A DNA stretch of 64,000 nucleotides, from the NCBI RefSeq assembly GCF_023499255.1, contig NZ_CP092183.1, positions 689,501 through 753,500 of the forward strand, written 5' to 3'. A model generated the notes under the pieces. That model was not told the origin of the DNA, did not search any database, and was given only the letters and a program-made list of their open reading frames with translations. Position numbers and translations under genes: made by a program. This document shows positions 25,535 through 62,661 of the stretch, one piece after another. The stretch's first letter is position 1; each line of letters starts with the position of its first letter. This stretch comes from Couchioplanes caeruleus. Its GTDB lineage: Bacteria; Actinomycetota; Actinomycetes; Mycobacteriales; Micromonosporaceae.

Positions 25535-25562
25535 CTCAGGTGAGGCCGCGGTAGGTCGATGA
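25535..25562 (+). promoter_or_regulatory. FliA-type promoter of the chemotaxis operon
   Basis: CTCA (25535-25538), a 16-base spacer and GTCGATGA (25555-25562) match the CTCA-N15-17-GCCGA pattern shared by the flagellar operons here, with one mismatch in the -10 core. The cheA start follows 31 bases later. Confidence 0.7.
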
Positions 25563-25593
25563 GGGTCTTGGGAAACGAGCAGGAGGTAGGGCG

Positions 25594-27942
25594 TTGGAAG
25601 ACCTTGGCGAGATCGTCGGCGAATTCCTCATGGAGAGCCACGAGAACCTGGATCAGATCGACCGGGACCTCGTGGCGCTGGAACAGGACCCGTCGTCCCG
25701 CGACCTGATCTCCCGCATCTTCCGGGCGATCCACACGATCAAGGGCACGAGCGGCTTCCTGGCCTTCACCCGGCTGGAGACGCTGGCCCACGCGGGTGAG
25801 TCGCTGCTGTCCCGGCTGCGCGACGGTGTCCAGCCGGTCACGCCGACGACGATCACCACGCTGCTGGCGACGATCGACGGCGTACGGTCGCTGCTGGAGG
25901 CCATCGAGCAGAACGGCTCCGAGGGTGACGTCGACGTCGACAGCATCATCGCGGCGGTACACGCGCAGATGAACGCCCCCGGCGACGCGGCCCCCGCGAC
26001 GGCTCCCGCCGCCACGGCCGAGCCGGCCGCCGCCCCCGAGCCGCTCGAGGAGCGCCCGGTCCGCCCGGCGCCCGAGCCGGTCGAGGATCAGCGCCGCCCG
26101 CTCGGCGAGATCCTCGTCGAGACCGGCGCCGCCCAGGCCGCCGACGTCGGCTCCGCGCTGCAGTCGCAGCTGGAGGGCGACGAGCGCAAGCTCGGCACGA
26201 TCCTGCTCGAGGAGGGCAAGACGCAGCCGGCCGCGGTCAGCGAGGCCCTGCAGGCGCAGACCCCGAAGCGCAGCGTCGCCGACAGCGCCATCCGCGTCGA
26301 CGTGGACCTGCTCGACACCCTGATGAACATGGTGGGTGAGCTCGTGCTCGCCCGTAACCAGCTCGTCCGCGGCGTGATGGAGATCGGCGACTCCGGCCTC
26401 GTCCGCAGCGCCCAGCGGCTCGGCATGATCACCTCGGAGCTGCAAGAGGGGATCATGAAGACCCGCATGCAGCCGATCGAGCACATCTGGTCGAAGCTGC
26501 CGCGGGTCATCCGGGACCTCTCCCAGTCCCTCGGCAAGCGCGTCGAGCTGGTGATGGAGGGCAAGGAGACCGAGCTCGACCGCAGCCTGCTCGAGGCGGT
26601 CAAGGACCCGCTGACCCACCTGGTCCGCAACGCCGTCGACCACGGCATCGAGGACACCGACCGGCGGGTCGCCGCGGGCAAGAGCCCCGAGGGGACGCTC
26701 ACGCTGCGGGCGTACCACGAGGGCGGGCACGTCGCGGTCGAGGTGGCCGACGACGGCGCCGGCATGGACGTCGACCGGATCGCGCAGAAGGCGGTCGAGA
26801 AGGGCCTGCTCCGGCCCGAACAGGTCGCCAACATGGACAAGCGCGAGATCATGGCGATGGTCTTCCAGCCCGGGTTCTCCACCGCGACCAAGGTGACCAA
26901 CGTGTCCGGCCGCGGCGTCGGCATGGACGTCGTCAAGACCAACATCGAGCGGATCGGCGGCGCGGTCAGCGTCGACTCGACGCTGGGCCAGGGCACGGTC
27001 TGGCGCCTCACGATCCCGCTGACCCTGGCCATCATCCAGGCGCTCACCGTCGACTGCGGCGACCAGCGGTACGTGGTGCCGCAGGTGGCCGTCCTCGAGC
27101 TGGTGTTCATCGACGGGCAGTCCACGAAGATCGAGTACGCCTCGGGCGCGCCCGTCTACCGGCTGCGCGGCAAGCTGCTCCCGCTGGTCCGCCTCGACCG
27201 CACCCTGGGCCTGGACCCGGGCGGCGACCAGGGCGTCTACATCATGGTGCTGCAGGCCGACGGGCGTCGCTTCGGCCTCGTCGTGGACCGCGTCCTCAAC
27301 ACCGAGGAGGTCGTGGTCAAGGCCCTCAACAGCCGCTTCAAGGACATCGGCCTGTACGCCGGCGCCACGATCCTCGGCGACGGCAAGGTCGGCCTGATCC
27401 TCGACGTCTCGTCGCTGGCGCGCCGCTCGCACCTCGCGGTCGACTCCGAGCGCGAGAACCTCGTCGGCGCCTCCCGCTCCACCGGCGCGGCCGGCACCGG
27501 CGAGCGCCTGCTCATCACCGCGGTGGGCGAGCGCCGGGTGGCGATCCCGCTGGACACGGTCACCCGCCTCGAGGAATTCCCGCGGGACCGCATCGAGCAC
27601 GCCGGCTCCCGCGAGGTCGTGCAGTACCGCGGTCAGATCCTTCCGCTGGTGCGGCTGTCGCACCTGCTGGGGGCGTACAGCGAGGTGGAGGAGGGCGACA
27701 CCGTCTCGGTGGTCGTCTACAGCGAGGGAGGCCGCAGCGTGGCGCTGGTCGTGGACCGCATCGTCGACATCGCCGAGAACTCGACCACGGCCCGCCGCGA
27801 CGCGGAGGAGGACGGCCTGGTCGGTACGGCGGTCATCCAGCAGCGCGTCACCGAGCTGCTCGACGTGCGCCGGGCGATCCTCGCCGCGGACCCGAACTTC
27901 TACAACGACATGGCCGGCGACGAGATGCTGGTGGAGGCCTGA
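25594..27942 (+). CDS. cheA: Chemotaxis histidine kinase CheA with tandem MshEN-like repeats and two CheW-like domains
   Basis: The 782-residue kinase starts at TTG 25594 after AGGAGGT. It phosphorylates CheY and CheB in response to receptors. P1 carries the phosphoacceptor His47 in RAIHTIKGTSGF. Instead of an ordinary P2, residues about 166-221 hold two copies of an LGxILxExG...AL..Q motif (LGEILVETG; KLGTILLEEG), like MshEN c-di-GMP-binding repeats. P3 starts near 225, and P4 has intact N, G1 and G2 boxes (HLVRNAVDHGIE; ADDGAGMD; GRGVGMDVV). Two CheW-like domains follow, at about 475-600 and 635-780, where one is usual. It is the first gene of the operon. Confidence 0.95.
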   Translation: MEDLGEIVGEFLMESHENLDQIDRDLVALEQDPSSRDLISRIFRAIHTIKGTSGFLAFTRLETLAHAGESLLSRLRDGVQPVTPTTITTLLATIDGVRSLLEAIEQNGSEGDVDVDSIIAAVHAQMNAPGDAAPATAPAATAEPAAAPEPLEERPVRPAPEPVEDQRRPLGEILVETGAAQAADVGSALQSQLEGDERKLGTILLEEGKTQPAAVSEALQAQTPKRSVADSAIRVDVDLLDTLMNMVGELVLARNQLVRGVMEIGDSGLVRSAQRLGMITSELQEGIMKTRMQPIEHIWSKLPRVIRDLSQSLGKRVELVMEGKETELDRSLLEAVKDPLTHLVRNAVDHGIEDTDRRVAAGKSPEGTLTLRAYHEGGHVAVEVADDGAGMDVDRIAQKAVEKGLLRPEQVANMDKREIMAMVFQPGFSTATKVTNVSGRGVGMDVVKTNIERIGGAVSVDSTLGQGTVWRLTIPLTLAIIQALTVDCGDQRYVVPQVAVLELVFIDGQSTKIEYASGAPVYRLRGKLLPLVRLDRTLGLDPGGDQGVYIMVLQADGRRFGLVVDRVLNTEEVVVKALNSRFKDIGLYAGATILGDGKVGLILDVSSLARRSHLAVDSERENLVGASRSTGAAGTGERLLITAVGERRVAIPLDTVTRLEEFPRDRIEHAGSREVVQYRGQILPLVRLSHLLGAYSEVEEGDTVSVVVYSEGGRSVALVVDRIVDIAENSTTARRDAEEDGLVGTAVIQQRVTELLDVRRAILAADPNFYNDMAGDEMLVEA

Positions 27943-27943
27943 C

Positions 27944-28381
27944 ATGGCGAGCCGGCAGTTCGCCACCTTCGAGGTGGCAGACCAGTTGTTCGGGGTCGAG
28001 GTCGACACGGTGCAGGAGGTGCTCTCGTACAACGAGTACACCCCGGTTCCGCTCGCGCCGCCGGCCGTCGGCGGGCTGTTCAACCTCCGCGGCCAGGTGA
28101 TCGCTGCGGTGGACCTGCGGGTCCAGCTCGGCCTCGCCCGGCAGGCCCTGCAGGGTCCGGTGATGAACGTGATCCTGCGCGGCGACGGCGAGCCGGTCAG
28201 CCTGCTCGTGGACCGCATCGGCGAGGTCGTGGACCTCGACGACGACGCGTTCGAGCCGCCGCCGGACACGCTCAGCGGGCCCACCCGCGAGCTGGTCACC
28301 GGGACGTTCAAGATGGACGGCCGGCTGATGCTGGCCCTCGACGTCAACCAGGCCGTCGACACGTACCGAGCCACCACCTGA
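27944..28381 (+). CDS. cheW: Chemotaxis adaptor CheW
   Basis: The 145-residue protein is one CheW domain that couples CheA to chemoreceptors at the membrane arrays. Conserved segments are FATFEVADQLFGVEVDTVQE, GLFNLRGQVIAAVDLRVQLG and VSLLVDRIGEVVDLD. The ATG is one base past the cheA stop and its stop shares one base with the next start, so translation is coupled on both sides. Length is normal. Confidence 0.94.
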   Translation: MASRQFATFEVADQLFGVEVDTVQEVLSYNEYTPVPLAPPAVGGLFNLRGQVIAAVDLRVQLGLARQALQGPVMNVILRGDGEPVSLLVDRIGEVVDLDDDAFEPPPDTLSGPTRELVTGTFKMDGRLMLALDVNQAVDTYRATT

Positions 28382-31290: not shown

Positions 31291-31296
31291 ACCGCG

Positions 31297-37978: not shown

Positions 37979-38047
37979 GGCCCCCCTTCCACCTGCTGAT
38001 AGTCCCGCAGCGGAGGCCGTGATGTGAGGAAATCTCCCAGATTATGA

Positions 38048-42883: not shown

Positions 42884-42911
42884 TCATCGGCTCGGTTGCG
42901 CAACCGCTGAG
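42884..42911 (-). promoter_or_regulatory. FliA-type promoter of the fliM operon
   Basis: On the minus strand CTCA (42908-42911), a 16-base spacer and GCCGATGA (42884-42891) match the flagellar promoter pattern. It lies between the fliL terminator and the fliM start; the first transcribed base should fall at or next to GTG 42876. Confidence 0.82.
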
Positions 42912-43465: not shown

Positions 43466-44470
43466 TCAGTCGTGGGTGGTGGTCGGGGACGTGGTGGTCG
43501 TTTCGGCCGCGGCCGCCGCGGCCTGAGCCTCGGCGGTGGTCTGACCGGTGTGCAGCTTGCCGTCGGGGCCGGCCGCGGACGGCAGCAGCGCCGCCTGCTC
43601 GGCGTTGAGCGTGGTGAGCACGACGACGTCCACCCGGCGGTTCATCGTGATGGACCGCGGGTCCTTGGGGTCGATCAGCGGCCGGGTGTCGGAGAAGCCG
43701 ACGGCGCTCATCCGGTTCTTCGCCAGGCCGTGGTTCACCAGGTAGCGCACCGTCGTCGAGGCGCGCGCGGCGGAGAGCTCCCACCCGCTCGGGTAGTACG
43801 CGACGGTGGCCTTGAGCTGGTTGGTGTTGCCGTCGACCTCGATGTTGTTCGGCAGCTTCACCAGCGTCGGCGCGATCGCGTCCAGGATCTTCCGGCCGCC
43901 CTCCTGCAGGTCGGCGCGGTTCCCCGCGAACACCACCTCGTTCGTCACGATGGTGACCACCAGGCCGCGCTGGTCGATCGTGAACTTGACCTGGTTGAGC
44001 AGCTTCGCCTGAGCCAGCGCGTCGGAGATCTTGTTCTCGATCTCCTTGAGCTTCGCCGCCTCGGCGGCTGCCGCCTTGGCGTTCTCCGAGGCGGCCTTGC
44101 GGTCCTCGGCCAGCACGGCCCGGTTGACCGCGTCCTGCTGCGCCTTGCTCATCCCGGCGAGGCCCGAGCCGCCGTCGCCCGGGTTCGTGCCCGGGTCGAT
44201 GGCGACGATGTTCGTGGCCTGGCCGGCGCCGTCGAACACCGCCGGGTTGCCCTGCAGCGCCGCGCTCGACGAGCCGAAACCCTGCGAGAGACCGGCCGCC
44301 AGCTCGGCGAACTTCTTCTTGTCGACGTTGCTCATGCTGAACAGCACGACGAACAGCACGAACAGCAGGGTGAGCATGTCGGCGTACGACACGAGCCAGC
44401 GCTCGTGGTTGACGTGCTCCTCGTGCTCCTCGTGACCGCCCTTCCGGCGCGGCTTACCCCCCGAGCTCAT
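43466..44470 (-). CDS. motB: Flagellar stator protein MotB
   Basis: The 334-residue protein has an N-terminal helix with the proton-carrying Asp31 (LVSYADMLTLLFVLFVVLFS) and a C-terminal OmpA-like domain (NGLAKNRM-type segment seen as VNHGLAKNRMSAVGFSDTRP). This domain should anchor the stator to peptidoglycan, but the usual GHTD reads GNTN (EVDGNTNQLKA), so the wall-binding Asp is replaced. The N-terminal tail is His/Glu-rich (GGHEEHEEHVNHERW). It is coupled to motA (two-base gap). Confidence 0.92.
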   Translation of the reverse strand: MSSGGKPRRKGGHEEHEEHVNHERWLVSYADMLTLLFVLFVVLFSMSNVDKKKFAELAAGLSQGFGSSSAALQGNPAVFDGAGQATNIVAIDPGTNPGDGGSGLAGMSKAQQDAVNRAVLAEDRKAASENAKAAAAEAAKLKEIENKISDALAQAKLLNQVKFTIDQRGLVVTIVTNEVVFAGNRADLQEGGRKILDAIAPTLVKLPNNIEVDGNTNQLKATVAYYPSGWELSAARASTTVRYLVNHGLAKNRMSAVGFSDTRPLIDPKDPRSITMNRRVDVVVLTTLNAEQAALLPSAAGPDGKLHTGQTTAEAQAAAAAAETTTTSPTTTHD

Positions 44471-45610: not shown

Positions 45611-45639
45611 CATTCGGCGGAGCGCCGGTTGCTGATGAG
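45611..45639 (-). promoter_or_regulatory. FliA-type promoter of the flbD-motA-motB-fliL operon
   Basis: On the minus strand CTCA (45636-45639), a 17-base spacer and GCCGAATG (45611-45618) match the shared flagellar pattern. The flbD start is 61 bases further on. Confidence 0.75.
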
Positions 45640-45646
45640 CGCGCTC

Positions 45647-45664
45647 CGGTCGCATTCCGGGTGC
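45647..45664 (-). promoter_or_regulatory. Direct repeat upstream of the flbD promoter (activator box candidate)
   Basis: On the minus strand GCACCCG-gaat-GCGACCG ends exactly seven bases before the -35 element. A similar GCAACTC-agcg-GCAACCA repeat stands seven bases before the flgB -35 (58803-58820). The pattern resembles what I recall of the TcrA box in Actinoplanes missouriensis. Confidence 0.4.
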
Positions 45665-45683
45665 GGGCGGCCCCGGAAATGCG

Positions 45684-45719: not shown

Positions 45720-45738
45720 ACGCCGGCTGAGCTGCCGG

Positions 45739-46977: not shown

Positions 46978-46980
46978 AGG

Positions 46981-47472: not shown

Positions 47473-47514
47473 GCGCCGGGTCCTCCTGAGTTGGGTGGTT
47501 GGCCCTCGCACTCA

Positions 47515-47542
47515 GGTTCGGCGGGCGCGCCGATTCGCTTAG
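47515..47542 (-). promoter_or_regulatory. Possible FliA-type promoter of flgD-flgE
   Basis: On the minus strand CTAA (47539-47542), a 16-base spacer and GCCGAACC (47515-47522) differ from the flagellar pattern only at one -35 base. It lies in the 95-base gap between fliK and flgD. Confidence 0.45.
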
Positions 47543-47567
47543 CCCCTATTTTCGGCGGGTTCGGAGC

Positions 47568-49553: not shown

Positions 49554-49574
49554 GGCGCGCTTCCCTCCGTGAGC

Positions 49575-50537: not shown

Positions 50538-51229
50538 GCGCGGCTCCCCTGGTCGTCGTGGCCTTCGTCTTCGAGTTCGGCCGGTTCCGGTGGGCGCTTA
50601 GCCGCAAGCAGCAGCTGTGCCCGCTTCGCCTCGATGGCGTTGCGGGCGTCGGCGAGCTCGATCGGGGGCCGCTGGGCGGCGACGGCGAGCGCGGTCTCCC
50701 GGGCGGCGTCCTCGCGGGCGGCGGCCGCGGCGGCCCGGTCGGCGATCGTGCCGCTGCCCTGCCGCAGCGCGCTGGCCCGTTCCTCGTTCATGGCGTCCAC
50801 GCCCCGGGCGGCGTTGCGCGCCTTCGACGTCACCGCCATCTCGTCGATGGTGTTCTGGTCGACGGTCAGGTCGTGGCGGCGTACGGCCTCCGCGTGCCGC
50901 TCGGCGAGCATCTCCACCGCCCGGCGCCGTTTGGCGGCGTCGGCCAGGCCGGCGACCTTCTCCCGGGTCCGCTCCTCCGCGTCGGTGACCATCCGGTGCG
51001 CGCCGGACAGCGTGGCGGCGAGCGACTGGCGGGCCACCATCGAGGCGACCATGGCGCGGGCGGTGCCCTCGGTGGGGGCGTCGGCTCCGGCCAGATCCAG
51101 CTGCCGGCGCTTGACCAGCGCCTGGGCGTCACGGATCTCCTGGCGGGACTGGATGACCGCGCCCCGGGCGGCGTCCTCCTGGGCCTTGCGTGCGCGCAGC
51201 ACGGGGCCGAGCCGGAACAAGCGATTCAC
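50534..51229 (-). CDS. fliJ: Flagellar export chaperone FliJ-like coiled-coil protein
   Basis: The 231-residue all-helical protein opens NRLFRLGPVLRARKAQEDAA, typical of FliJ, which links the FliI ATPase to FlhA. The rest is Arg/Ala/Glu-rich coiled coil. It is longer than the usual 145-residue FliJ. It has its own FliA-type promoter 31 bases upstream, because the TetR module separates it from fliI. Identification rests on the N-terminus and position. Confidence 0.82.
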   Translation of the reverse strand: MNRLFRLGPVLRARKAQEDAARGAVIQSRQEIRDAQALVKRRQLDLAGADAPTEGTARAMVASMVARQSLAATLSGAHRMVTDAEERTREKVAGLADAAKRRRAVEMLAERHAEAVRRHDLTVDQNTIDEMAVTSKARNAARGVDAMNEERASALRQGSGTIADRAAAAAAREDAARETALAVAAQRPPIELADARNAIEAKRAQLLLAAKRPPEPAELEDEGHDDQGSRA

Positions 51230-51259
51230 GAGACCTCCCAGAAAGTGCCGTCACCGTCC

Positions 51260-51287
51260 CGGTCGGCCCGATGCGGGTGCCGCTGAG
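51260..51287 (-). promoter_or_regulatory. FliA-type promoter of the fliJ operon
   Basis: On the minus strand CTCA (51284-51287), a 16-base spacer and GCCGACCG (51260-51267) match the flagellar pattern; the fliJ start is 31 bases further. A GCACCCG-acct-GCACCCC direct repeat (51293-51310) stands just upstream of it, in the opposite orientation. Confidence 0.75.
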
Positions 51288-51355
51288 CGGCTGCACCCGA
51301 CCTGCACCCCGTCCGTGCCGCCGCCGGTGCGACGGCGGTCGCGTTCCGGCCGGAT

Positions 51356-51368
51356 CTAACGTTGTTAG
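51356..51368. promoter_or_regulatory. Operator of the TetR gene
   Basis: CTAACGTTGTTAG has 5-base arms CTAAC/GTTAG and overlaps the TAGGAT -10 hexamer (51366-51371) in front of the TetR gene. The same palindrome occurs twice in front of the divergent SnoaL-like gene, so this is very probably the autoregulatory site. Confidence 0.75.
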
Positions 51369-51436
51369 GATGGCTCTGCCGTGACGGCGCCGCCGGCGGC
51401 TCCTGCCGAGGGCACGCTGGAAGCGAGGTGGCCACG

Positions 51437-52063: not shown

Positions 52064-52121
52064 GCGCGGAAACGGCTCCGGCCCGGTTCCGTTTCGCGAA
52101 ACCGGGCCGAGGGGCGGGGCA

Positions 52122-52682: not shown

Positions 52683-52710
52683 GGGGTCTCCTTGCCTGGC
52701 CGACGCATTC

Positions 52711-52741
52711 CTAACGCCGTTAGATTTTCTAACGCCGTTAG
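52711..52741. promoter_or_regulatory. Two tandem TetR operators upstream of the SnoaL-like gene
   Basis: CTAACGCCGTTAG occurs at 52711-52723 and again at 52729-52741, start to start 18 bases. Each has perfect 6-base arms. They lie 29-59 bases before the SnoaL-like start and match the TetR-gene operator at 51356-51368. Bases 52742-52981 show no further convincing feature. Confidence 0.85.
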
Positions 52742-52981
52742 GTCAGGCCGTGCCGGACAGGGCCGTCAAGGAACGGGGAGGACCGGGGAAGCGACCGCCA
52801 AGCCGGTGGTGTGTCCCCGGCACTCGAGACGCACCACCTCATGCGCGACGCGCCGTACTGACGGTCGAACATGAGATCGTCGAAGTCGAGGTGGGCCCGC
52901 TTGTGGGTGATCGAGCTGAGGCTCACGACGCGCGGGGCCGGAGCCGCGGCGAGACCGTCGAGCAGCAGGCCGGTTAAGGGG

Positions 52982-54289
52982 TCAGGAGGCCGCGATGAGC
53001 TGGCGCAGCTGGGCCCAGGCCTGCTCCGCGCCGACCTTCTCGTCGAGGCCCTGACGCAGGAACGCGGTGATCTGCGGCCAGACCGCCGCGGCCCGGTCCG
53101 CCTCCGGGTTGGTGCCCGGGACGTACGCGCCGATCTCGACCAGCTCGCGCACCTCGCGGTGAGCGGCCATCAGGCGGCGCAGTTCCGTCGCGTCGCTGCG
53201 CTGTTCCGGGGTGGTGATCCTGTTCGCCACCCGGGAGATCGAGTCGAGCGCCTGGATGCTCGGGAAGTGGCCGGCCGTGGCGAGCTTGCGGTCCAGCACG
53301 ATGTGGCCGTCCAGGATGGAGCGGGCCGCGTCGGCGATCGGCTCGTTGTGGTCGTCGCCCTCCACCAGCACGGTGTAGAGGCCGGTGATGCTGCCCCGGG
53401 CGCCCGGGCCGGCACGTTCCAGCAGCGACGCCAGCATCGCGAAGACCGACGGCGGGTAGCCGCGGGTGGCGGGCGGTTCGCCGACGGAGAGGCCCACCTC
53501 GCGCTGGGCCATCGCCGCGCGGGTCACGCTGTCCATCATCAGCAGCACGTCGCCGCCCTCATCGCGGAAGTACTCGGCGATGCGGGTCGCGACCGAGCCG
53601 GCGCGCAGGCGGACCAGCGGGGGCGTGTCCGAGGTCGCGATCACCACCACCGAGCGGGCCAGCCCCTCCGGGCCGAGGTCGTGCTCGATGAACTCCCGGA
53701 CCTCGCGGCCGCGCTCGCCGACCAGGGCCACCACGTTCAGCTCGGCCGTGGTGCCGCGCGTGATCATGCTCATCAGGGTGCTCTTGCCGACGCCCGAGCC
53801 GGCGAAGATGCCGATGCGCTGGCCGCGGCCGCACGGCACGAGCGTGTCCAGGACCCGTACGCCCAGCGGCATCGGCGCGTCCACGAGCTGGCGCTCCATC
53901 GCCGAGGGCGGGGCGGCCTCGATGCCGACCATCTCGCCCCGCAGCGGCGGGCCGCCGTCCATCGGCCGTCCCAGCCCGTCGAGGATCCGGCCGCGCAGGT
54001 CGGGCCCGACCGCCACCCGCAGCGGCCCGCCCGTGGAGACCACCGGCGTACCGGTGCTCAGCCCCGCGATCGGGCCCAGCGGCAGGCAGGACAGCCGTTC
54101 CCCGTCGAGCGCGGCGACCTCGGCCAGCACCGCCTCGTCGCCCTCGCCCATCTGCAGGAGGTCGCCGACGCGTGCCTCCAGCCCGCTCACCGTGACCCGC
54201 AGGCCCACCGCGCCCGTCACCTTGCCCCGGGTGAGCGGCTGGGCCGCCGACAGCGCGGCGTTGATCCGGTTGCGGAAGACGTCGGTCAC
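52982..54289 (-). CDS. fliI: Flagellar export ATPase FliI
   Basis: The 435-residue F1-beta-like ATPase has Walker A in IGIFAGSGVGKSTLMSMI, Walker B in DVLLMMDSVTRAA and the family block GRPMDGGPPL. It unfolds and feeds substrates into the export gate with FliH and FliJ. It overlaps fliH by four bases. Its stop is followed by 440 bases (52542-52981) taken by the inserted SnoaL-like gene and its operators, instead of fliJ. Confidence 0.95.
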   Translation of the reverse strand: MTDVFRNRINAALSAAQPLTRGKVTGAVGLRVTVSGLEARVGDLLQMGEGDEAVLAEVAALDGERLSCLPLGPIAGLSTGTPVVSTGGPLRVAVGPDLRGRILDGLGRPMDGGPPLRGEMVGIEAAPPSAMERQLVDAPMPLGVRVLDTLVPCGRGQRIGIFAGSGVGKSTLMSMITRGTTAELNVVALVGERGREVREFIEHDLGPEGLARSVVVIATSDTPPLVRLRAGSVATRIAEYFRDEGGDVLLMMDSVTRAAMAQREVGLSVGEPPATRGYPPSVFAMLASLLERAGPGARGSITGLYTVLVEGDDHNEPIADAARSILDGHIVLDRKLATAGHFPSIQALDSISRVANRITTPEQRSDATELRRLMAAHREVRELVEIGAYVPGTNPEADRAAAVWPQITAFLRQGLDEKVGAEQAWAQLRQLIAAS

Positions 54290-54960
54290 AGGCGGAGGGC
54301 TTCCTTTGCTCGGGCGACGGCCGCGGCGATGGACGCGTCCACCGTGGTGGTGCCGGTCTCCGCGACGGCGTCGCCGGGCCGCAGGGCGGAATCGGGGCGC
54401 AGGTGCACCGGCCGACCCTCGTAGTTGTAGTCGGCGTCGGTTGCCGTACCGACCAGATTGACGAAATCGTCGGGATGCAGGCTCACCACGATGTCGCCGA
54501 GATCCGGTGCGGCGCTCATGGCCCGGCGCAGGGCCGCCGCGGCCCGCCCCTCCGGGTCGTCCATCGCCCGGCCCACGATGGCCTCGGCCAGCTCGAACGC
54601 GTTCGCGAGCACCGCCTCCTGCAGCTCCTGCAGGGTCGGCATCAGCTGGGTCTCCAGGTTGGTCACGGCCCGGCCGAGCGCGTTGACCGCCTGCGCCAGC
54701 GCCGCGGCGCGACGCTGGTCGTGCGCCTGCTCATACGCCCGCGCCCGCTCGGCGGTCGCCTCGGCCTCCATCGCGGCGGCCCGCTGGCCCTGGGCCCAGC
54801 CCTCGGCATAACCGGCCGTGCGGGCCTCCTGCTTCGCCCGTTCCACGGGAGCGCTGTCCATGGGTACGGCGCGCCGCAGGTCCACGCCGAAGCGGGCGGC
54901 CGCGGCGGACTCGGCCACCGTGCCGCGCAGCACCGGCCCCTCGTCAGGCGATGAGCTCAT
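54286..54960 (-). CDS. fliH: Flagellar assembly protein FliH
   Basis: The 224-residue product has the FliH layout: Glu/Ala/Arg coiled coil with the spaced GYAEGWAQGQRAA repeat region (about 60-100), then a C-terminal domain (ANAFELAEAIVGRAM, DIVVSLHPDDF). FliH regulates the FliI ATPase. ATG 54960 was chosen over 54975 for a better N-terminus; it overlaps fliG by 17 bases. Confidence 0.87.
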   Translation of the reverse strand: MSSSPDEGPVLRGTVAESAAAARFGVDLRRAVPMDSAPVERAKQEARTAGYAEGWAQGQRAAAMEAEATAERARAYEQAHDQRRAAALAQAVNALGRAVTNLETQLMPTLQELQEAVLANAFELAEAIVGRAMDDPEGRAAAALRRAMSAAPDLGDIVVSLHPDDFVNLVGTATDADYNYEGRPVHLRPDSALRPGDAVAETGTTTVDASIAAAVARAKEALRL

Positions 54961-55969
54961 CGGCCTCACCGCCACGCTGGATCTCGATCTGGCCGGAGTC
55001 CTCGAGCGAGCGGATCACCGAGACGATCTTCTGCTGCGACTCCTCGACCATCCGCACCTTGACCGGGCCCATCAGGTCCATCTCCTCGAGCAGGTTCTCC
55101 CGGCCGCGCTCGGACAGGTTGCTGGTGACCTTGTCGCGGACCGCGTCGGCCACGCCCTTGAGCGCGGTGGCCAGGTCCGCGGGCTCGACCTGGCGCAGCA
55201 CCAGCTGCACCGAACGGTCGTCGAGGGTCACGATGTCCTCGAACATGAACATCCGCCGGCGGATCTCCTCGGCGATCTCCGGGCTGCGCTTCTCGAGCGC
55301 CTCCAGGATGAGCCGCTCGGTGGTGCGGTCGGCGCGGTTGATGATGTCGACCAGTGGGCCCAGACCACCGACCGTGGACAGCTCGTCGGGCTGCAGCACG
55401 GTGGAGAGCTTGCGCTGCAGGGCGAGCTCGACCTGGCGGATCACGTCGGGGGAGGTGCGGTCCATGACGGCGATGCGGTGCGCCACGTCGGACTGCACCT
55501 CCGGCGCCAGCCCGGACAGGATCGACGACGCCAGCGCCGACGGGATGTGCGCCAGCACCAGGGCGATCGTCTGCGGGTGCTCGTACTGCACGTACGACAG
55601 CAGCTGCCGGGGGTCGGCGTGGCTGAGGAAGTTGAACGGCATGTCGGTCATCGAGGCCTGCAGCCGGTCGAGGATCAGCTGGGCCCGTTCGGTGCCCAGC
55701 GACGCCTCGAGCAGCTCACGGGCGTACGCCATGCCGCCCGCGCCGGCGTGCTTGGTGGTCGCCATCGCGTAGAACTCGTCGATGACGTCGACGACGGTCT
55801 CCGGTTCCAGCTTGCCGAGCCGGGCGATCTCGGCCGACAGCTCCTCGACCTCGCTCTCGCTCATGTTCGCGAGCACCCGGGTCGAGTACTCCTTGCCCAT
55901 GCGCACCAGCAGGATGGCGGCCTTGCGCAGGCCGGTCATCGTATTCGTGCTCAGTGCCGGCGTGGTCAA
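54944..55969 (-). CDS. fliG: Flagellar motor switch protein FliG
   Basis: The 341-residue protein has N-terminal, middle (EHPQTIALVLAHIPSALASS) and C-terminal charged domains. The C-terminal part (DRSVQLVLRQVEPADLATAL, NLSERGRENLLEEMDLMGPV) contains the residues that interact with MotA. It joins the FliF ring to the FliM/FliN switch and takes up torque. AGGAGG lies upstream of the start. Length is typical. Confidence 0.95.
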   Translation of the reverse strand: MTTPALSTNTMTGLRKAAILLVRMGKEYSTRVLANMSESEVEELSAEIARLGKLEPETVVDVIDEFYAMATTKHAGAGGMAYARELLEASLGTERAQLILDRLQASMTDMPFNFLSHADPRQLLSYVQYEHPQTIALVLAHIPSALASSILSGLAPEVQSDVAHRIAVMDRTSPDVIRQVELALQRKLSTVLQPDELSTVGGLGPLVDIINRADRTTERLILEALEKRSPEIAEEIRRRMFMFEDIVTLDDRSVQLVLRQVEPADLATALKGVADAVRDKVTSNLSERGRENLLEEMDLMGPVKVRMVEESQQKIVSVIRSLEDSGQIEIQRGGEADELIA

Positions 55970-56014
55970 CGCGGTTCCTCCTTGAACCAGGGGGGTGTGC
56001 GGTCGGGGGGTCGA

Positions 56015-57613
56015 TCAGCGGCCGGCGCCGAGCCAGCCCCGCAGCAGGGCGGCCATCTCCTCCGGCTGGTCCTCGACCATCTGCTCGATCTCCCGCTGGC
56101 GCTCCTCCAGCGCCTCGTGGGTGATGTTCGCGGCCTCGAGCGCCGGCGACGGGATCGCCGCGTTCAGCTCGGCCAGGCGCTGCGCCTCCAGGGCGGCCTG
56201 CATCTCCTCGAGGTGCCGCAGCTCCGCCGGGGTCAGCGCCTTGCGCTTGCGCTGCTTCCGGCTCCAGCGCCAGGCCAGGAAGATCAGGAAGAGCACGACC
56301 AGGGCCATGGCGGCGGTCTTGATCAGCGACGTCTGCTTCGCCGACTTCTCCGCGGCGGCCGAGGCGGCCAGGGCGTTCTGCGCGGCGGTGGCAGCCGAGG
56401 TGTCGAACGCCATCGCGCTGACCGCCACGGTGTCGCCCCGGGTCGGGTCGACGCCGGCCGCGGCGCTGACCAGGGTCTGCACGTCGGCCTGGTTGACGGC
56501 GCCGGCGGTGGTCGCGTCCAGCAGGACCGCGACGTTCAGCCGCTTGATGCTGCCCGGCGCCCGGTTCCGGGTCTCGGTGACCTCGTTGACCGAGTTGTTG
56601 CGGGTGACGGTGCTGTTCTCGTACTGGCCGGTGCCGGCGCTGCTCGTACCGTTCGGCACCTGGATGTTGTCCGGGCCGAGCACGCCGCCGGTCCCGTTGC
56701 CGTTGCCGTTGTACGCCTCCCGCTGGATCTGCTCGGAGAGCGCGGCGACCGACGGGTCGGACGAGTACGTCTTGCTGGTCGTCTGGGTCCGGTCGAAGTC
56801 CAGCTCCGCGGTCGTGGTCACCACGGCGTGGCCGGGGCCGACGACGGCGTCGAGCATCTTCTGCAGCGACGAGTTGAGGCGGTTCTGGAAGGCGACGGTC
56901 TCCGAGTCGGAACCGCTGTCACCGCCCGAGGACACCGGCGCGCCGTTGCCGCTCGACAGCACCTTGCCGTCCGCGCCGACCACGGTGACGTTGGTGGGAT
57001 CCAGCCCTTCCACGGACGAGGCGACCAGGTTCACGATCGCCTGCACGGTCTGTCCTGACAGCGGCTTGCTCGGCGAGGAGGCCACCAGCACCGAGGCGGT
57101 GGTCTTCTCCTGGTCGTCGGCGAAGACGTCCTTCTGCGGGATGACCAGGTTGACCGTGGCCGCCTCGACGCCGTCGATGCTCTTGATGGTGTTGGCCAGC
57201 TCGCCCTGCAGCGCCCGCTGGTAGTTCGTGTGCTGCATGAAGTCGCTGGTGGTGATCCCCTGCTTGTCGAGCAGGGCGTAGCCGGTGTCGGCGTCCCCGG
57301 GGAGCCCTTCGCCGGACATCTGCAGGCGCAGGTCGTACACCTGGTCCTGGGGCACCATGATCGTCGTGCCGCCGTTGGCCAGCTCGTACGGCGTGCCGGA
57401 CTTCTGCAGCGACTCGACGATCGCGGAGGCGTCCTTGCTTGACAGGTTGCTGAACAGGGCGGAGTAGGAGGGCTTCGACGCCCAGGTGGCGAAGAAGTAG
57501 CCGCCGATCACGAGGGCGAGCACCGCCGCGATCGTGACCGCCTTCTGTCCGGGGGTGAAGGACTTGAAGGTGTCGCCGACCTTGCGTACGGGCGCGGGGA
57601 GACGGTCCGTCAT
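56015..57613 (-). CDS. fliF: Flagellar MS-ring protein FliF
   Basis: The 532-residue protein has two membrane helices (VTIAAVLALVIGGYFFATWA near residue 28; LIKTAAMALVVLFLIFLAW near residue 430) with an external YscJ/FliF ring domain between them (VESLQKSGTPYELANGGTTI, VNLVIPQKDVFADDQEKTTA). The C-terminal cytosolic tail binds FliG. It is the base on which the rod and export gate assemble. It starts one base before the fliE stop. Confidence 0.94.
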   Translation of the reverse strand: MTDRLPAPVRKVGDTFKSFTPGQKAVTIAAVLALVIGGYFFATWASKPSYSALFSNLSSKDASAIVESLQKSGTPYELANGGTTIMVPQDQVYDLRLQMSGEGLPGDADTGYALLDKQGITTSDFMQHTNYQRALQGELANTIKSIDGVEAATVNLVIPQKDVFADDQEKTTASVLVASSPSKPLSGQTVQAIVNLVASSVEGLDPTNVTVVGADGKVLSSGNGAPVSSGGDSGSDSETVAFQNRLNSSLQKMLDAVVGPGHAVVTTTAELDFDRTQTTSKTYSSDPSVAALSEQIQREAYNGNGNGTGGVLGPDNIQVPNGTSSAGTGQYENSTVTRNNSVNEVTETRNRAPGSIKRLNVAVLLDATTAGAVNQADVQTLVSAAAGVDPTRGDTVAVSAMAFDTSAATAAQNALAASAAAEKSAKQTSLIKTAAMALVVLFLIFLAWRWSRKQRKRKALTPAELRHLEEMQAALEAQRLAELNAAIPSPALEAANITHEALEERQREIEQMVEDQPEEMAALLRGWLGAGR

Positions 57614-57614
57614 G

Positions 57615-57941
57615 CTAAGCCTGCATCCTCATGATCTCCTGGAAGGCCTCGACGGCCTTGTTCCGGATCGCCATCGTCAGCTGCAGCCCGAGGGACGCCT
57701 CGGTGGCCGCCATGGTGTACTGCGCCGGGTCCTGCAGGGTGCCGTTCGCCACCTGCACGGCCAGATCGCCGGCATTGGACTGGGACGCCTGCACGCTCTC
57801 CAGACCCTTGGAGAGCATGCTCGCGAAGTCGGTGTTCACGCCGGTGGCCGCGGCGGTGCCGGACGTGCCGCTCACCGCGTTCACGCCGGTCACGCCGCTG
57901 AGGCCGGTCACCGCGCCGATCGCGCCGATGGGAGACGTCAT
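57615..57941 (-). CDS. fliE: Flagellar hook-basal body protein FliE
   Basis: The 108-residue protein joins the MS ring to the rod. It has DFASMLSKGLESVQASQSNA, DLAVQVANGTLQDPAQYTMA and the C-terminal VEAFQEIMRMQA, all typical of FliE. The first 35 residues are Gly/Val/Thr rich. ATG 57941 overlaps nothing but lies two bases from flgC. The longer frame to 58283 lies inside flgC and is rejected. Confidence 0.9.
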   Translation of the reverse strand: MTSPIGAIGAVTGLSGVTGVNAVSGTSGTAAATGVNTDFASMLSKGLESVQASQSNAGDLAVQVANGTLQDPAQYTMAATEASLGLQLTMAIRNKAVEAFQEIMRMQA

Positions 57942-57943
57942 GA

Positions 57944-58339
57944 TCAGGCCTTCCCGAGGTTGATCGCGGCCTGGTACGACTCCCGCGCCCGGTCGACGAC
58001 GGAGAGGTTGGCCTGGTACGAGCGCTGCGCCATGATCAGCTGCGCCATCTGGCCGCCGAGGTCGATGTCCGGGCGGCGTACGTAGCCCTCGGTGTCGGCC
58101 AGCGGGTTGTCCGGCTCGTACGACAGCCGGCCCTCGGCGTTGCCGTACGCGATGCCGCCGACCTGGGCGCCGTTGCCGTCCTGCGCCTCCTGGGCGACGA
58201 CGTAGCGGGCCTGGAAGGCGTTCTCGGACGTCCGGCTGACATTGTCGATGTTGGCGATGTTGTCGGACACGGCGTCGAGCCACTTGCGGTAGACCGTCAC
58301 GCCGCTGCCCGCCACGCCGATCGCGTTGAAGGTGCTCAT
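57944..58339 (-). CDS. flgC: Flagellar rod protein FlgC
   Basis: The 131-residue rod component has the N-terminal motif GVAGSGVTVYRKWLDAVSDN, IANIDNVSRTSENAFQAR and the C-terminal helix MAQLIMAQRSYQANLSVVDR. Exported early to build the proximal rod. It follows flgB by five bases and precedes fliE in the standard order. Length is normal. Confidence 0.94.
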   Translation of the reverse strand: MSTFNAIGVAGSGVTVYRKWLDAVSDNIANIDNVSRTSENAFQARYVVAQEAQDGNGAQVGGIAYGNAEGRLSYEPDNPLADTEGYVRRPDIDLGGQMAQLIMAQRSYQANLSVVDRARESYQAAINLGKA

Positions 58340-58344
58340 CTAGC

Positions 58345-58692
58345 TCAGGCCCCCTTGATCGCGTCGCGGATCAGGCTGTACTTGCCGTCGAGAGCGCGGA
58401 TCGCCAGCGAGTAGCGCATCGTGGTGTCGATGTGCGAGAGCGTCTCCTCGTCGAGGTTGACGTTGCTGCCGTTCAGGCGCGTCGGCTCCAGCGAGTTCTG
58501 CACGCTCGGCGTGACCGTCGAGGGCGACCGGCCGCTGGCGACGGCGCTGCTCAGCGCCTCCTCGAACTTGACCTTACGGGCCTGGTAGCCGGGGGTCTCG
58601 ATGTTCGCGATGTTGTTGGCGATGGCGTTCTGCCGGGCGGACAGGCCGGCGACTGCGACGCGGAGCGAGGACGATGCGACGTCGTCGAACAC
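58345..58692 (-). CDS. flgB: Flagellar rod protein FlgB
   Basis: The 115-residue rod component has the N-terminal SLRVAVAGLSARQNAIANNI, ANIETPGYQARKVKFEEALS and a C-terminal region ending MRYSLAIRALDGKYSLIRDA. It starts at GTG 58692 with AAGGAAC upstream. It is the first gene of the basal-body operon behind the promoter at 58768-58795. Confidence 0.94.
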   Translation of the reverse strand: MFDDVASSSLRVAVAGLSARQNAIANNIANIETPGYQARKVKFEEALSSAVASGRSPSTVTPSVQNSLEPTRLNGSNVNLDEETLSHIDTTMRYSLAIRALDGKYSLIRDAIKGA

Positions 58693-58767
58693 GGCAGCGT
58701 TCCTTCCAGTGGATCGAGGTGCCGGTCCGTGGCGGTCGGGCGGAGCAATCCTTTGCTCGTACCTTTC

Positions 58768-58795
58768 GCTTCGGCCTGGCCGCCGATCCGCTGAG
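58768..58795 (-). promoter_or_regulatory. FliA-type promoter of the flgB basal-body operon
   Basis: On the minus strand CTCA (58792-58795), a 16-base spacer and GCCGAAGC (58768-58775) match the flagellar pattern. The direct repeat GCAACTC-agcg-GCAACCA (58803-58820) ends seven bases upstream of the -35; an overlapping inverted repeat GCGGCAA/TTGCCGC spans 58795-58812. Confidence 0.75.
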
Positions 58796-58824
58796 CGGCA
58801 AATGGTTGCCGCTGAGTTGCACGC

Positions 58825-58853
58825 AAAAACCCGGAACCCCTCGGGGCTCCGGG
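58825..58853 (-). terminator. Terminator of the fliC-fliD-fliS transcript
   Basis: An 11-base stem with one G-U pair (58830-58840 with 58843-58853) is followed on the minus strand by a TTTTT run (58825-58829). It lies 20 bases after the stop of the last gene. Confidence 0.85.
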
Positions 58854-58872
58854 CCGGTGCGGTGCGGTGTTC

Positions 58873-59193
58873 TCACATGGCGCAGTCGAGGTAGACCGGG
58901 CGCTTGACGGCTTCGCCGGTCTCGATCCGGCTGGTCATGGCCTGCTGGACCCGCGTGGCGGTGAGCCGGTGGGCGATCTCCTGCGCGGCCGCCAGCTGAC
59001 GGGTGAGGATCTCGTCGGCCCGGGGGCGCAGCTCGAGCGGCAGCGCGCCCAGGTCGGTGGGCGGCTTCCACAGGTCGGACGGCGGGGTCTCGGCGTAGCG
59101 GCGCGCGTCGGCCAGCATGGCCTCGGTGGCTGCCACGTCCATCTCGAGGTCGTCGAGCGCGGCGGTCCAGGCATTTCGCCAGGCGTCGGTCAC
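58873..59193 (-). CDS. Small protein downstream of fliS, FliT-like in position
   Basis: The 106-residue, probably helical protein (DAWRNAWTAALDDLEMDVAA, TEAMLADARRYAE, ILTRQLAAAQEIAHRLTATR) ends in Cys-Ala-Met. No family is recognised. It lies 36 bases after fliS, the place of the FliD chaperone FliT in other bacteria, and its size agrees with such a chaperone. Sequence similarity to FliT was not evident, so the role is inferred from position only. Confidence 0.65.
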   Translation of the reverse strand: MTDAWRNAWTAALDDLEMDVAATEAMLADARRYAETPPSDLWKPPTDLGALPLELRPRADEILTRQLAAAQEIAHRLTATRVQQAMTSRIETGEAVKRPVYLDCAM

Positions 59194-59229
59194 GCTGTCC
59201 CCACCTCGCTCTCCATCACCATCGGTATC

Positions 59230-59619
59230 TCAGGCCACGGGGGCGGACGATGCGACCGCCAGCGCGGCGGCCTCCCGCCAGGCGTCGCGCAGGGGTTCGA
59301 TCAGTGCGCGGCAGGCGGCGACGCGGTCGGCGTCGCGGGCGACGTTGGCGCCGATGAGCTCGGTGAGCAGGAACCCGTAGAGGTTCGCCAGGCCGGGCGC
59401 GCCCGCCCAGGCGTCGACGTCGAGGGTCGTGCGCAGCTCCAGGATGATCTCCTGGGCGTGGTTCAGCTTGTCGTTGGCCTGCTCCCGCTCGCCGGCGCGG
59501 AGTGCCTCTTCCCCTTGGAAGAGGTCCATGACGAGGCGGTCGTAGAGCATCACCAGCAGCTTGCCCGGGGAGGCCGTACTGATGGAGTCCTGCAGGTAGC
59601 GGTTCAGCGGAGAGGTCAT
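59230..59619 (-). CDS. fliS: Flagellin chaperone FliS
   Basis: The 129-residue four-helix protein has NRYLQDSISTASPGKLLVML, YDRLVMDLFQGEEAL and LRTTLDVDAWAGAPGLANLY, the FliS signatures. It binds flagellin's C-terminus in the cytosol until export. It follows fliD by 62 bases. Length is normal. Confidence 0.94.
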   Translation of the reverse strand: MTSPLNRYLQDSISTASPGKLLVMLYDRLVMDLFQGEEALRAGEREQANDKLNHAQEIILELRTTLDVDAWAGAPGLANLYGFLLTELIGANVARDADRVAACRALIEPLRDAWREAAALAVASSAPVA

Positions 59620-59681
59620 TTGTTCCCTTTGCTCAGGAATATGGGCATTCCTTGGGCGGTCAGGTCGGATCGGGGCGCTCG

Positions 59682-61148
59682 TCAGCCGAGGCTGGCGATC
59701 TGGCCGGAGAGCCAGGTGGACTGCGACTTGAGCTTGGAGAGGGCGGTCTCCAGGCCCGAGTACTGCTTCTGCAGCGCCTCCTGGCGGCCCACCAGCCGTA
59801 CGCCCCAGTCGTCGATCTGCAGGTTCAGGCTGTCGATGACGTTCTTGCGGCCGGTGATGGACGAGGTGATGTTGCTGTTCTGGGTGTTCGCCAGCGCCTC
59901 GAACTTGTCGGCGAAGGCGACCCCCGCCTCCTTGATGGCGCTCGGGTCCGCGTTGTACGCGGCGGTGAACTTGGCCGCGTCGAAGGTCATCTGGCCGGAC
60001 GAGTCGAGGGCGATGCCGAGCTTGCTCAGGCTGCCGAAGTTGACGATGTTGGCCTTGTCCGCGGTGATGTCCGCCGGCGTCGCCGTCTTGGGGTCCGGCG
60101 CCGCGGGCGCACCCGCCTTGCGGTACGACAGGCCCTGGCTGATCGCGCTCAGCACCTGCTGGGTCATCTGCCGCACGGAGAAGTCGCCGGTCAGCGGCGA
60201 CCCCTTCTTGGTCTCCGGGTCGTACGCGGTCTGCTTCTTGATCTCGCCGAGCGCGCCGTTGGCGGCGTCCACGAGCGCCTGGAACTTGGCGGCGATGCCG
60301 GACACGTCCGAGACGGAGGTGACGGTCACGTCGTCCTCGACCTTGCCGACGGTCAGGCTCACGCCGGCCATCAACCCGGTGAAGGTGTTCGTGCCGCTGC
60401 TGAGCGTGTAGCCGCCGGGGGCCGCGTCGCCGCCGCCGACCTCGACGACCGCGTCGGCGGCCGTGGTGCCCGGGACGAGCCCGTACGCGTCGGCGGCGGC
60501 GTTCTCGAGGCCGGAGACGGCGAACGCGTTGCCGGCGCCGGTCTTCGTGCCGTTCAGCTGGAGCACGCTCTGCGAGCTGCCGACCTGCACGAGCGTCGCC
60601 TTGACGCCGAGCCCGGCGCCGTTGATGGCCGCCTGGATCCCCTTCGCGGACTTGTCCTTGCTGACGTCGATCTCCACCGGCGTCCCGGTGACCACGCCGT
60701 TCTCCACCTTGCCGATGGTGATCGAGATCTTGTCGGGGACGTCCAGCTGGACGCCGCGGGTCTTCGTCGGGTCGTTCGGGTACGCCGGGTCCTGCTCGGT
60801 CGACGTGTCCACGCGCATGGTGGCGGACTGGGCCGTGGCGAGCGCCTTGACCGAGAACTTCACCGCGCCGGCCACCGCGTCGGTGCCCCCGGTGGCGGTC
60901 GCCGTCACGGAGGTCGAGCTGGAGGTGGGCCGGACGGCGCGCCAGGTGCTGAGCTGGCTCAGGGTGTCGGCGGCGGTCTTCATCGCCGAGACCTTCGTGT
61001 TGACGGCCTGGTATGACGTGACCACCGCCTCGGCGGCGGAGACCTTCGACTTCAGGCGGGTCTGCGGGGCCGCCTCGACCTGCATCAGTGAGCTGATCAT
61101 GGACGAGGTGCTGAGACCACTGACGAGGCCGTCGATCGAGCTGGTCAC
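59682..61148 (-). CDS. fliD: Flagellar filament cap protein FliD
   Basis: The 488-residue protein has the FliD N-terminus (SIDGLVSGLSTSSMISSLMQ, VEAAPQTRLKSKVSAAEAVV) and C-terminal coiled coil (LDSSGQMTFDAAKFTAAYNA; LNLQIDDWGVRLVGRQEALQ). A beta-rich region lies between. Five or so copies cap the filament and help flagellin fold on. It has no visible FliA-type promoter of its own and probably depends on readthrough from fliC past the weak hairpin at 61185-61219. Confidence 0.94.
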   Translation of the reverse strand: MTSSIDGLVSGLSTSSMISSLMQVEAAPQTRLKSKVSAAEAVVTSYQAVNTKVSAMKTAADTLSQLSTWRAVRPTSSSTSVTATATGGTDAVAGAVKFSVKALATAQSATMRVDTSTEQDPAYPNDPTKTRGVQLDVPDKISITIGKVENGVVTGTPVEIDVSKDKSAKGIQAAINGAGLGVKATLVQVGSSQSVLQLNGTKTGAGNAFAVSGLENAAADAYGLVPGTTAADAVVEVGGGDAAPGGYTLSSGTNTFTGLMAGVSLTVGKVEDDVTVTSVSDVSGIAAKFQALVDAANGALGEIKKQTAYDPETKKGSPLTGDFSVRQMTQQVLSAISQGLSYRKAGAPAAPDPKTATPADITADKANIVNFGSLSKLGIALDSSGQMTFDAAKFTAAYNADPSAIKEAGVAFADKFEALANTQNSNITSSITGRKNVIDSLNLQIDDWGVRLVGRQEALQKQYSGLETALSKLKSQSTWLSGQIASLG

Positions 61149-61184
61149 GGGGCGCCTACTTTCCTGCCGGGTACAAATGTGAAA

Positions 61185-61219
61185 CGGGGGTAGCCGGCGC
61201 CGTCTGCCAGCTACCCCCG
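61185..61219 (-). terminator. Hairpin after the flagellin gene
   Basis: A 10-base stem (61185-61194 with 61210-61219) encloses a 15-base loop, 52 bases after the fliC stop. It probably reduces readthrough into fliD so that flagellin is made in excess. Confidence 0.65.
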
Positions 61220-61270
61220 ACTATTCGGTTGTCAGCGATATTCAGTTAGGAGTTGCCGGTAGCGGTTCGG

Positions 61271-62470
61271 TTAGCGCAGCAGCGACAGAACGTTCTGCGA
61301 GGCCTGGTTGGCCTGCGACAGCATCGAGGTGCCGGCCTGGGTCAGGATCTGGTTCCGGGTGAAGGAGACCATCTCCTGCGCCATGTCGGTGTCACGGATG
61401 CGCGACTCCGACGCGGACAGGTTCTCGACCGAGACGTTCAGGTTGTTGATCGTGTGCTCGAACCGGTTCTGGTACGCACCGAGCGTGGCGCGCTGGTCCG
61501 ACACCCCCTGGATGGCGGTGTCGAGGGCGTCGATCGCGGCCTGCGGGTCCGTGGTCAGGTCCAGGCCGCTCGTGCCCAGAGCCGTGGCGCTGATCGCGTC
61601 GATCGAGATGCTCATGGTCTCGCCCGAGTTGGCGCCGATCTGGAACGTGCCCGAGTTGGCACCCGCCACCGGGGTCGCGCCGGACGCCGCCGTGCCGGCA
61701 CCGGTCAGGGAGGTGAGGCCCGTACCGCCGCCGTCGCTGACCGAGAACTCCTTGTTGCCGGAGAACGTGGTCTTGTAGCCGGCCTTGTCGGCCGTGACGT
61801 CGAGCTTGACCTTGATCTCGTCGCCCTTGTAGCCGCTCTGCTTCAGCGCGGACGAGATCGCGTCGTTGTACGCGGACTCGACCTCCTTGGCGGTGGCGTT
61901 CGCGCCGATGTTGCCGGTGGTCACCGAGATCTCGTTGCCGGCGCCCAGCGCGACGCCGTTCACGGTGTCGATCTGGAACGTCTGCGCACCCGTCGGCAGC
62001 GAGGCGGCCGCCTGGGTGGTGGACGACTGGAACGACTTGCCGAAGGAGCCGTCGAGCAGCTTGGACTTGCCGAACGACGTGGTGCTGCCGATCCGGTCCA
62101 GCTCCTGGTTCAGCTGGCCGAACTCCTTCTGCGCGGCCGCGGTGGCCTCGCTGTCCTGCGAACCGCCGTTGGCGGCCTGCACGGACAGGTCACGCATGCG
62201 CTGCAGGATCGAGGTGACCTCGTTGAGCGCACCCTCAGCGGTCTGCGCGACGCTGATGCCGTCCTGGGCGTTGCGGACGGCGACCTTCAGGCCACCGACC
62301 TGCGAACGCAGGCCCTCGGAGATCGAGAGGCCGGCCGCGTCGTCGGCCGCGCGGTTGATGCGGAAACCGCTGGACAGCTTCTCCAGCGACTTCGACATCT
62401 GGCTGTCGGTGACCGACAGGTTCCGGTAGGCGTTCTGGGCGGCGATGTTCTGGTTGATGCGGAGACCCAT
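61271..62470 (-). CDS. fliC: Flagellin FliC
   Basis: The 399-residue filament subunit has the conserved D0/D1 N-terminus ([40 protein letters not shown]) and C-terminus ([24 protein letters not shown] segment, [25 protein letters not shown]). A variable surface domain of about 150 residues lies between. It is the only flagellin gene in the window. AAGGAGG stands eight bases before the ATG. It has the best-placed FliA-type promoter and a downstream hairpin. Confidence 0.96.
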
Positions 62471-62535
62471 GGTGTTTCCTCCTTGAGTGCGGGTCCGTGG
62501 CGGCTCATCCGTAAGCCGTTGGCGTTGCGCCAGTC

Positions 62536-62563
62536 AGATCGGCGGTCCTCCGCCGGTCATGAG
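62536..62563 (-). promoter_or_regulatory. FliA-type promoter of the flagellin gene
   Basis: On the minus strand CTCA (62560-62563), a 16-base spacer and GCCGATCT (62536-62543) agree with the flagellar pattern. Flagellin is a standard FliA target, which anchors the pattern seen at the other operons. Confidence 0.85.
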
Positions 62564-62633
62564 CAGTCTGCGAAATTTCTTCGGGCTTTTCGGGCGATTG
62601 CCAGATCTCCGGCCTGCTACCGGGTGGAAACCC

Positions 62634-62661
62634 CTCAGAGACCCACCGGCCGTGCCGACCT
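62634..62661 (+). promoter_or_regulatory. FliA-type promoter of flgN-flgK
   Basis: CTCA (62634-62637), a 16-base spacer and GCCGACCT (62654-62661) match the shared flagellar pattern on the plus strand, divergent from the fliC promoter. The flgN start follows 61 bases later. Confidence 0.78.

Follow-up and report, generated by a model that had tools for sequence, protein, structure and literature searches.

The flagellar regulon of Actinoplanes missouriensis is the closest described system to the one considered here, and Jang et al. 2016 (J Bacteriol 198:2219) reportedly gave its promoters the consensus CTCA(N15-17)GCCGAA, with eleven mapped starts. A more distant standard of comparison is the three-tier flagellar cascade with FliA and FlgM. 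In the accessible parts of the sources cited here and below, the flagellar genes of A. missouriensis are described as simultaneously transcribed and without a checkpoint (in a review, PMC8306008), 29 genes of its flagellar cluster increase 100-fold or more between day 1 and day 3 (PMC11960193), WhiG-like sigma factors direct the genes for pili and flagella in Actinoplanes (PMC8325347), the canonical sigma-28 consensus is given as TAAA and GCCGATAA (PMC8325347), and the TcrA box has the consensus GCAMCCG-N4-GCAMCCG (PMC12691653). In this study, we analyzed a 64-kb stretch of the genome of Couchioplanes caeruleus (the window, 64,000 nucleotides (nt) in all), for which a preliminary description had listed a FliA-type pattern, CTCA-N16/17-GYCGA, ahead of seven chemotaxis and flagellar genes. 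Based on the comparisons below, these sites probably serve a FliA-family (sigma-28-like) sigma factor as promoters.

A CTCA-type motif upstream of seven operons

All seven of the listed sites were found in the sequence at the positions and in the orientations claimed for them, with a spacer of 16 nt at six and 17 nt at flbD, as had been described (Table 1). The core of the -10 element is GCCGA at six sites and GTCGA at cheA, with A, T or C as the sixth base. The motif has 13 matches in the window, compared with 4.1 +/- 2.0 (maximum 9) in 100 dinucleotide shuffles, and eight of the 13 are located -25 to 150 nt upstream of a same-strand gene, based on crude gene calls from GC at codon positions. 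These eight comprise the seven listed sites and one within motB, before fliL, which we take to be a chance match given how few relatives retain it. When the letters of the -35 element were reordered, ten of eleven other orderings gave no gene-upstream site in the window and one gave a single site; similarly, six of seven other spacer pairs gave none and one gave a single site. Twenty 20-kb samples of the same genome contained 33 CTCA matches, four of them located upstream of one of the 293 genes predicted there, a total not above that of some scrambled motifs in those samples. Gene-upstream sites numbered 8/66 in the window versus 4/293 in the sampled background (Fisher p = 2.4e-4). The longer pattern CTCA-N15-17-GCCGAWNA had 49 matches genome-wide versus seven for the reversed pattern; 30 of the 49 were extracted and a few followed up with crude gene calls. 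By such gene calls, a CTCA site outside the cluster lies 37 nt ahead of a gene encoding an MCP signalling domain, and a T2SSE-family ATPase gene, also outside it, is preceded at 36 nt by a CTAA site. An Rfam search of the window gave no match, and a sigma-70 scan of positions 45000-63300 found none, a null result of little weight because only 0.4 were expected.

To assess conservation, a FliM query was used that returned 49 loci, of which one is from Aeromicrobium (Nocardioidaceae) and 48 were taken as Micromonosporaceae: three genera (Nucisporomicrobium, Mangrovihabitans and Jidongwangia) were verified as members of that family, and the remaining loci we presume to belong to it. The fliC, flgC/flgB and cheA loci came from 25/26 genomes, some with two fliC or flgN loci. 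Conservation in Table 1 refers to Micromonosporaceae and to the exact motif, with a spacer of 15-17 nt, at most 130 nt upstream. With one mismatch allowed, the counts were 47/48 for fliM, 45/47 for flbD, 10/10 for fliJ, 24/24 for flgB, 27/28 for fliC, 27/27 for flgN and 23/24 for cheA. That rule is a loose one, also giving 21/47 for motA, 19/48 for flhB, 15/48 for fliL, 11/27 for fliD and 0/48 for fliN, mostly at scattered positions. With a control spacer of 20-22 nt, the exact motif was found in 0-3 loci per gene (fliM 3, fliS 1, flgB 1), and the one-mismatch form in up to 19/48 at fliM. The spacers within the sites themselves have a pairwise identity of only 0.48-0.72 (the flbD spacer left out). 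A common sigma factor for these operons is well supported by the comparative evidence, because the motif is conserved at orthologous places. Accidental occurrence in GC-rich DNA is an extremely improbable origin of the sites; the shortness of the motif and the one gene-upstream match of the eight that looks accidental (motB) speak for it, but the scrambled motifs, the wrong spacers and the conservation contradict it.

The fliM site is peculiar in its closeness to the gene, with the GTG start (42876) exactly 10 nt past GYCGA, a distance shared by 47/48 loci. Since sigma-28 promoter geometry places the transcript start near this GTG, the arrangement suggests that the fliM message would be nearly leaderless.

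Outside the family, Aeromicrobium has CTCA-N16-GCCGA before five of the seven genes (fliC, flgN, flgB, fliM and flbD). We also scanned 150 nt upstream of flgB in the 12 non-Micromonosporaceae regions in which this gene was found. Four of the 12 (L268, L272, L280 and L286) have CTCA-N16-GCCGA, for which the chance at the background rate is about 1.6e-5, a fifth (L273) has CTAA-N16-GCCGA, and seven (L267, L270, L275-L278 and L285) have neither motif. The presence of the motif in some of these regions suggests that FliA-type control of the basal-body operon is probably older than Actinoplanes and that it is not universal.

Table 1. Positions in the window (1 = first nucleotide) of promoter-like sites, boxes and associated features, with their retention in relatives
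Feature	Position	Strand	Conservation or remark
cheA site, CTCA-N16-GTCGA	25535..25559	+	20/24 relatives
fliM-fliN-fliO-fliP-fliR-flhB site, CTCA-N16-GCCGA	42887..42911	-	47/48 relatives
flbD-motA-motB-fliL site, CTCA-N17-GCCGA	45614..45639	-	43/47 relatives
fliJ site, CTCA-N16-GCCGA	51263..51287	-	10/10 relatives
flgB-flgC-fliE-fliF-fliG-fliH-fliI site, CTCA-N16-GCCGA	58771..58795	-	22/24 relatives
fliC-fliD-fliS site, CTCA-N16-GCCGA	62539..62563	-	21/28 loci
flgN site, CTCA-N16-GCCGA	62634..62658	+	27/27 loci
flgD-flgE site, CTAA-N16-GCCGA	47518..47542	-	47/47 relatives
lytA-fliK site within the end of fliJ, CTAA-N16-GCCGA	50577..50601	-	10/10 relatives with this gene order
TcrA-type box, 13/14, upstream of flbD site	45647..45664	-	same place (exactly -25 from the -35) in 37/47 relatives
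TcrA-type box, 13/14, reversed, upstream of fliJ site	51293..51310	+	-22/-23 in 10/10 relatives
TcrA-type box, only 11/14 here, upstream of flgB site	58803..58820	-	exactly -25 from the -35 in 24/24 relatives
PhoB/OmpR-family response regulator gene directly before cheA	24713..25507	+	adjoins cheA in ten mapped relatives
flhB-flhA gap, no FliA-type motif; other conserved element GAGATTTNCTCACAT at 38022-38036	37979..38047	-	
Exact motif inside motB, before fliL	43503..43527	-	exact in 3/48 relatives; outside regulon

CTAA sites and fixed deviations

The preliminary description had mentioned a weaker copy of the motif before flgD, and this copy proved to be real: every one of the loci compared has CTAA-N16-GYCGA and never CTCA at this place. 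The site had seemed unconserved in the CTCA search (3/48) before CTAA was admitted. Downstream of it come a leader containing a ribosome-binding site and the likely flgD start, an ATG at 47472. A second CTAA site, for lytA and fliK, was present in all of the relatives with readable upstream DNA, and the residues around it vary; it was seen in 0/6 rearranged clusters and was not found in Aeromicrobium.

Across the relatives, individual promoters also keep their own departures from the consensus. At the third position of the -35 element, 183 matched sites of the seven CTCA promoters have C and two have A (a tally that leaves out 14 loci without a match), and 57/57 at flgD and lytA have A. Matched cheA sites have GTCGA in 19/20 cases, GCCGAC occurs in 25/27 matched sites at flgN and 10/10 at fliJ, and the 17-nt spacer of flbD occurs in 40/43. 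As the relatives represent one family, these deviations are kept states and not independent events. We infer from them a set of tuned promoter strengths, in which the third -35 base, the spacer and the -10 bases most likely set relative amounts.

Several structural features of the cluster and its relatives were also recorded. In six relatives the block from flgD to flhA is inverted relative to the fliC block, with most of the flbD, fliM and flgD sites retained. The FliM of the window is 98% identical to that of Nucisporomicrobium flavum, whose mapped cluster retains the FliA-type sites, including those of flgD and lytA, and whose spores are described as non-motile (PMC11960193). The fliI-fliJ interval (51230-52984) is about 1.75 kb long and carries a SnoaL-like gene at 52122-52682; the gap in N. 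flavum is of similar length with no SnoaL-like match, and in other relatives it is short. The gene after flhA (34417-35958) has no Pfam match, and its N-terminus is weakly FlhF-like (29 bits, far under the cut-off).

TcrA-type boxes, sigma factors and FlgM

Boxes resembling the TcrA consensus lie just upstream of three of the promoters (Table 1). Those scoring at least 13/14 number two in the window (flbD and fliJ) and 0 in 800 kb strand-nt of background. Box presence without a fixed position says little, as the control gene fliP had one in 29/48 loci; the evidence lies in the position relative to the -35 element at flgB, flbD and fliJ (Table 1). A reversed box at -19 precedes cheA in 9/24 loci, fliQ has a box in 28/28 scored loci, and no common box position was found among relatives for fliM, fliC, flgN, flgD or lytA. 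Three of the four fliA genes of this genome are preceded, at no more than 650 nt, by a box scoring 12 or 13 of 14, for which the chance is about 0.002. The PhoB/OmpR-family response regulator encoded directly before cheA is an unproven candidate for TcrA itself.

Such a distribution raises the possibility, to our mind a doubtful one, of a hidden order in which the operons with TcrA-type boxes (flgB, flbD, fliJ and fliQ) would be expressed first and those with FliA-type sites only (fliC, flgN, fliM, flgD and lytA) later. The fixed places of the boxes at the first group, the lack of a common place at the second and the boxes near the three fliA genes all point in this direction. Against it, the accessible part of the review (PMC8306008) describes expression in published time courses as simultaneous, boxes scoring 11 arise frequently by chance (576 in 800 kb strand-nt of background), and only 3/6 of the relatives' fliA genes that were looked at have a box.

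Four sigma factors of the FliA/WhiG family were identified in the genome with TIGR02479, at 192.1, 188.8, 183.8 and 177.1 bits; relative to the cut-off of 189.6 bits only the first is above and the other three are slightly under, and the next match scores 119.7. In a tree that was midpoint-rooted and carried long-branch warnings, the four correspond to four orthologue groups common to the relatives, and these groups are split from E. coli FliA and from WhiG by a branch with support of 99/99. Their -35 helices read R-A-E or R-T-E, versus H-S-Q in E. coli FliA and H-T-K in WhiG. Each of five Micromonosporaceae genomes with four paralogues (one genome assessed by eye) has two of the R-A-E and two of the R-T-E type. 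The R-x-E helix of the cluster-type FliA was considered as the cause of the CTCA element. It contrasts clearly with the H-T-K sigma factors, but the idea was given up as a main claim, since CTCAA-type sites were also found in genomes with H-T-K sigma factors and some R-x-E sigma factors are placed in the opposite half of the same tree.

The two helix types, together with the strict division of the third -35 base, could indicate that each site type, CTAA or CTCA, has FliA paralogues of its own, resulting in separate control of the flgD and lytA operons. We regard this as improbable, however, because the four helices are otherwise nearly identical and a difference in promoter strength accounts for the -35 division equally well.

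No match to FlgM was found in the whole genome, and 3/14 control genomes gave matches; with FlgM not found, there is no known hook checkpoint. In the accessible text of one source, FlgM is reported absent from later actinobacterial classes (PMC10746217).

A common promoter type and its place among known systems

In the mechanism that we propose, RNA polymerase with one or more of the four FliA paralogues would initiate at eight, probably nine, operons (cheA, flgN, fliC, flgB, fliJ, flgD, flbD, fliM and probably lytA), covering chemotaxis, basal body, export, hook, stator, switch and filament. Upstream control of expression would most likely fall to a TcrA-like response regulator that acts on the fliA genes and directly on flgB, flbD and fliJ. 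The fixed deviation of each promoter would replace staged timing, most likely by setting relative amounts. The preliminary description had gone further in placing early and late operons under the same sigma factor with simultaneous expression. Its common FliA-type promoter is upheld by the orthologous conservation, and the genome having no FlgM agrees with it; flat simultaneity is beyond what sequence can tell and may be too simple.

A number of observations weigh against this explanation. The relatives are all of one family, so that the conservation counts are not independent. Genome-wide (8.42 Mb), CTAA-N16-GYCGAA occurs five times, two of these in the window, and in view of the four occurrences of the reversed control this number is not raised. 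There is no window-wide enrichment of TcrA-type boxes at 11 or 12 of 14 (102 and 8 hits per 128 kb strand-nt in the window, 576 and 52 per 800 kb strand-nt in the background). In this genome flhA lacks the CTCA-N15-17-GYCGA motif, which 18/48 relatives have exactly (17 under a slightly different rule). A loose pattern recovers the GAGATTTNCTCACAT element of the flhB-flhA gap in 37/48 relatives; with up to one mismatch, the element has a single occurrence in this genome. Transcription of flhA may come by read-through from the fliM operon. Finally, at fliQ, a gene located away from the cluster, the strict motif is found in only 1/30 loci, a count that includes one clipped locus and one from Aeromicrobium, and a loose CTNN-N16 version in 27/28. 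The fliQ gene is present in two copies about 1 Mb apart (genome positions 5267445-5267663 and 6293969-6294187) with identical proteins and nearly identical upstream DNA, and several relatives have two or three matches. The pattern has more than one layer, with TcrA-type boxes at a constant position at only some operons, the CTAA class, the motif-less flhA and a degenerate copy at fliQ.

We speculate, while considering it unlikely in this full form, that the regulon is only seemingly flat, and that a fixed promoter grammar and four FliA paralogues with two helix types replace the FlgM checkpoint, setting subunit ratios and perhaps order, with a basal-body FliA-type promoter older than the Micromonosporaceae. 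The elements of such a grammar would be the CTAA of flgD-flgE and lytA-fliK, the TcrA box abutting the -35 element at flgB, flbD and fliJ, the GTCGA of cheA, the GCCGAC of flgN and fliJ, and the 17-nt spacer of flbD.

When compared with the three-tier FliA/FlgM cascade, the cluster is alike in having a FliA-type promoter at fliC and unlike it in having such promoters also at basal-body, export and switch operons, with FlgM not found; it represents a natural example of flagellum assembly without a FlgM checkpoint. The CTCA of the seven sites and the spacers of 16 or 17 nt (range 15-17 nt) agree with the promoter reported for A. missouriensis; of its -10 element, GCCGAA, six of the seven sites have GCCGA and cheA has GTCGA, with a sixth base that varies. 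The regulon of the latter also has the same gene set and, in the accessible part of the review, neither hierarchy nor checkpoint (PMC8306008); what appears to set this genome apart is the CTAA at flgD and lytA, the motif-less flhA and the fixed deviations. With the canonical sigma-28 promoter, as given in the accessible text, the sites share the GCCGA core of the -10 element and a similar spacing, whereas their -35 element is CTCA or CTAA, not TAAA, and the -10 element is less strict at its end. The TcrA regulon, as far as its source is accessible, likewise has such boxes, which here lie just upstream of the -35 element at flbD and fliJ and more weakly at flgB, but in this cluster they occur only at some flagellar operons. 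The core claim is not new, the interpretation being largely in print for A. missouriensis in the accessible sources. New details are the promoter-specific fixed deviations, the placed TcrA-type boxes at flgB, flbD and fliJ, the boxes near three of the four fliA genes, the motif-less flhA and the extension of the pattern to Aeromicrobium. In this way a result from one species is widened to the 48 related loci studied and, in the case of some genes, to organisms outside the family, and the expression of all genes at once is recast as testable differences from promoter to promoter.

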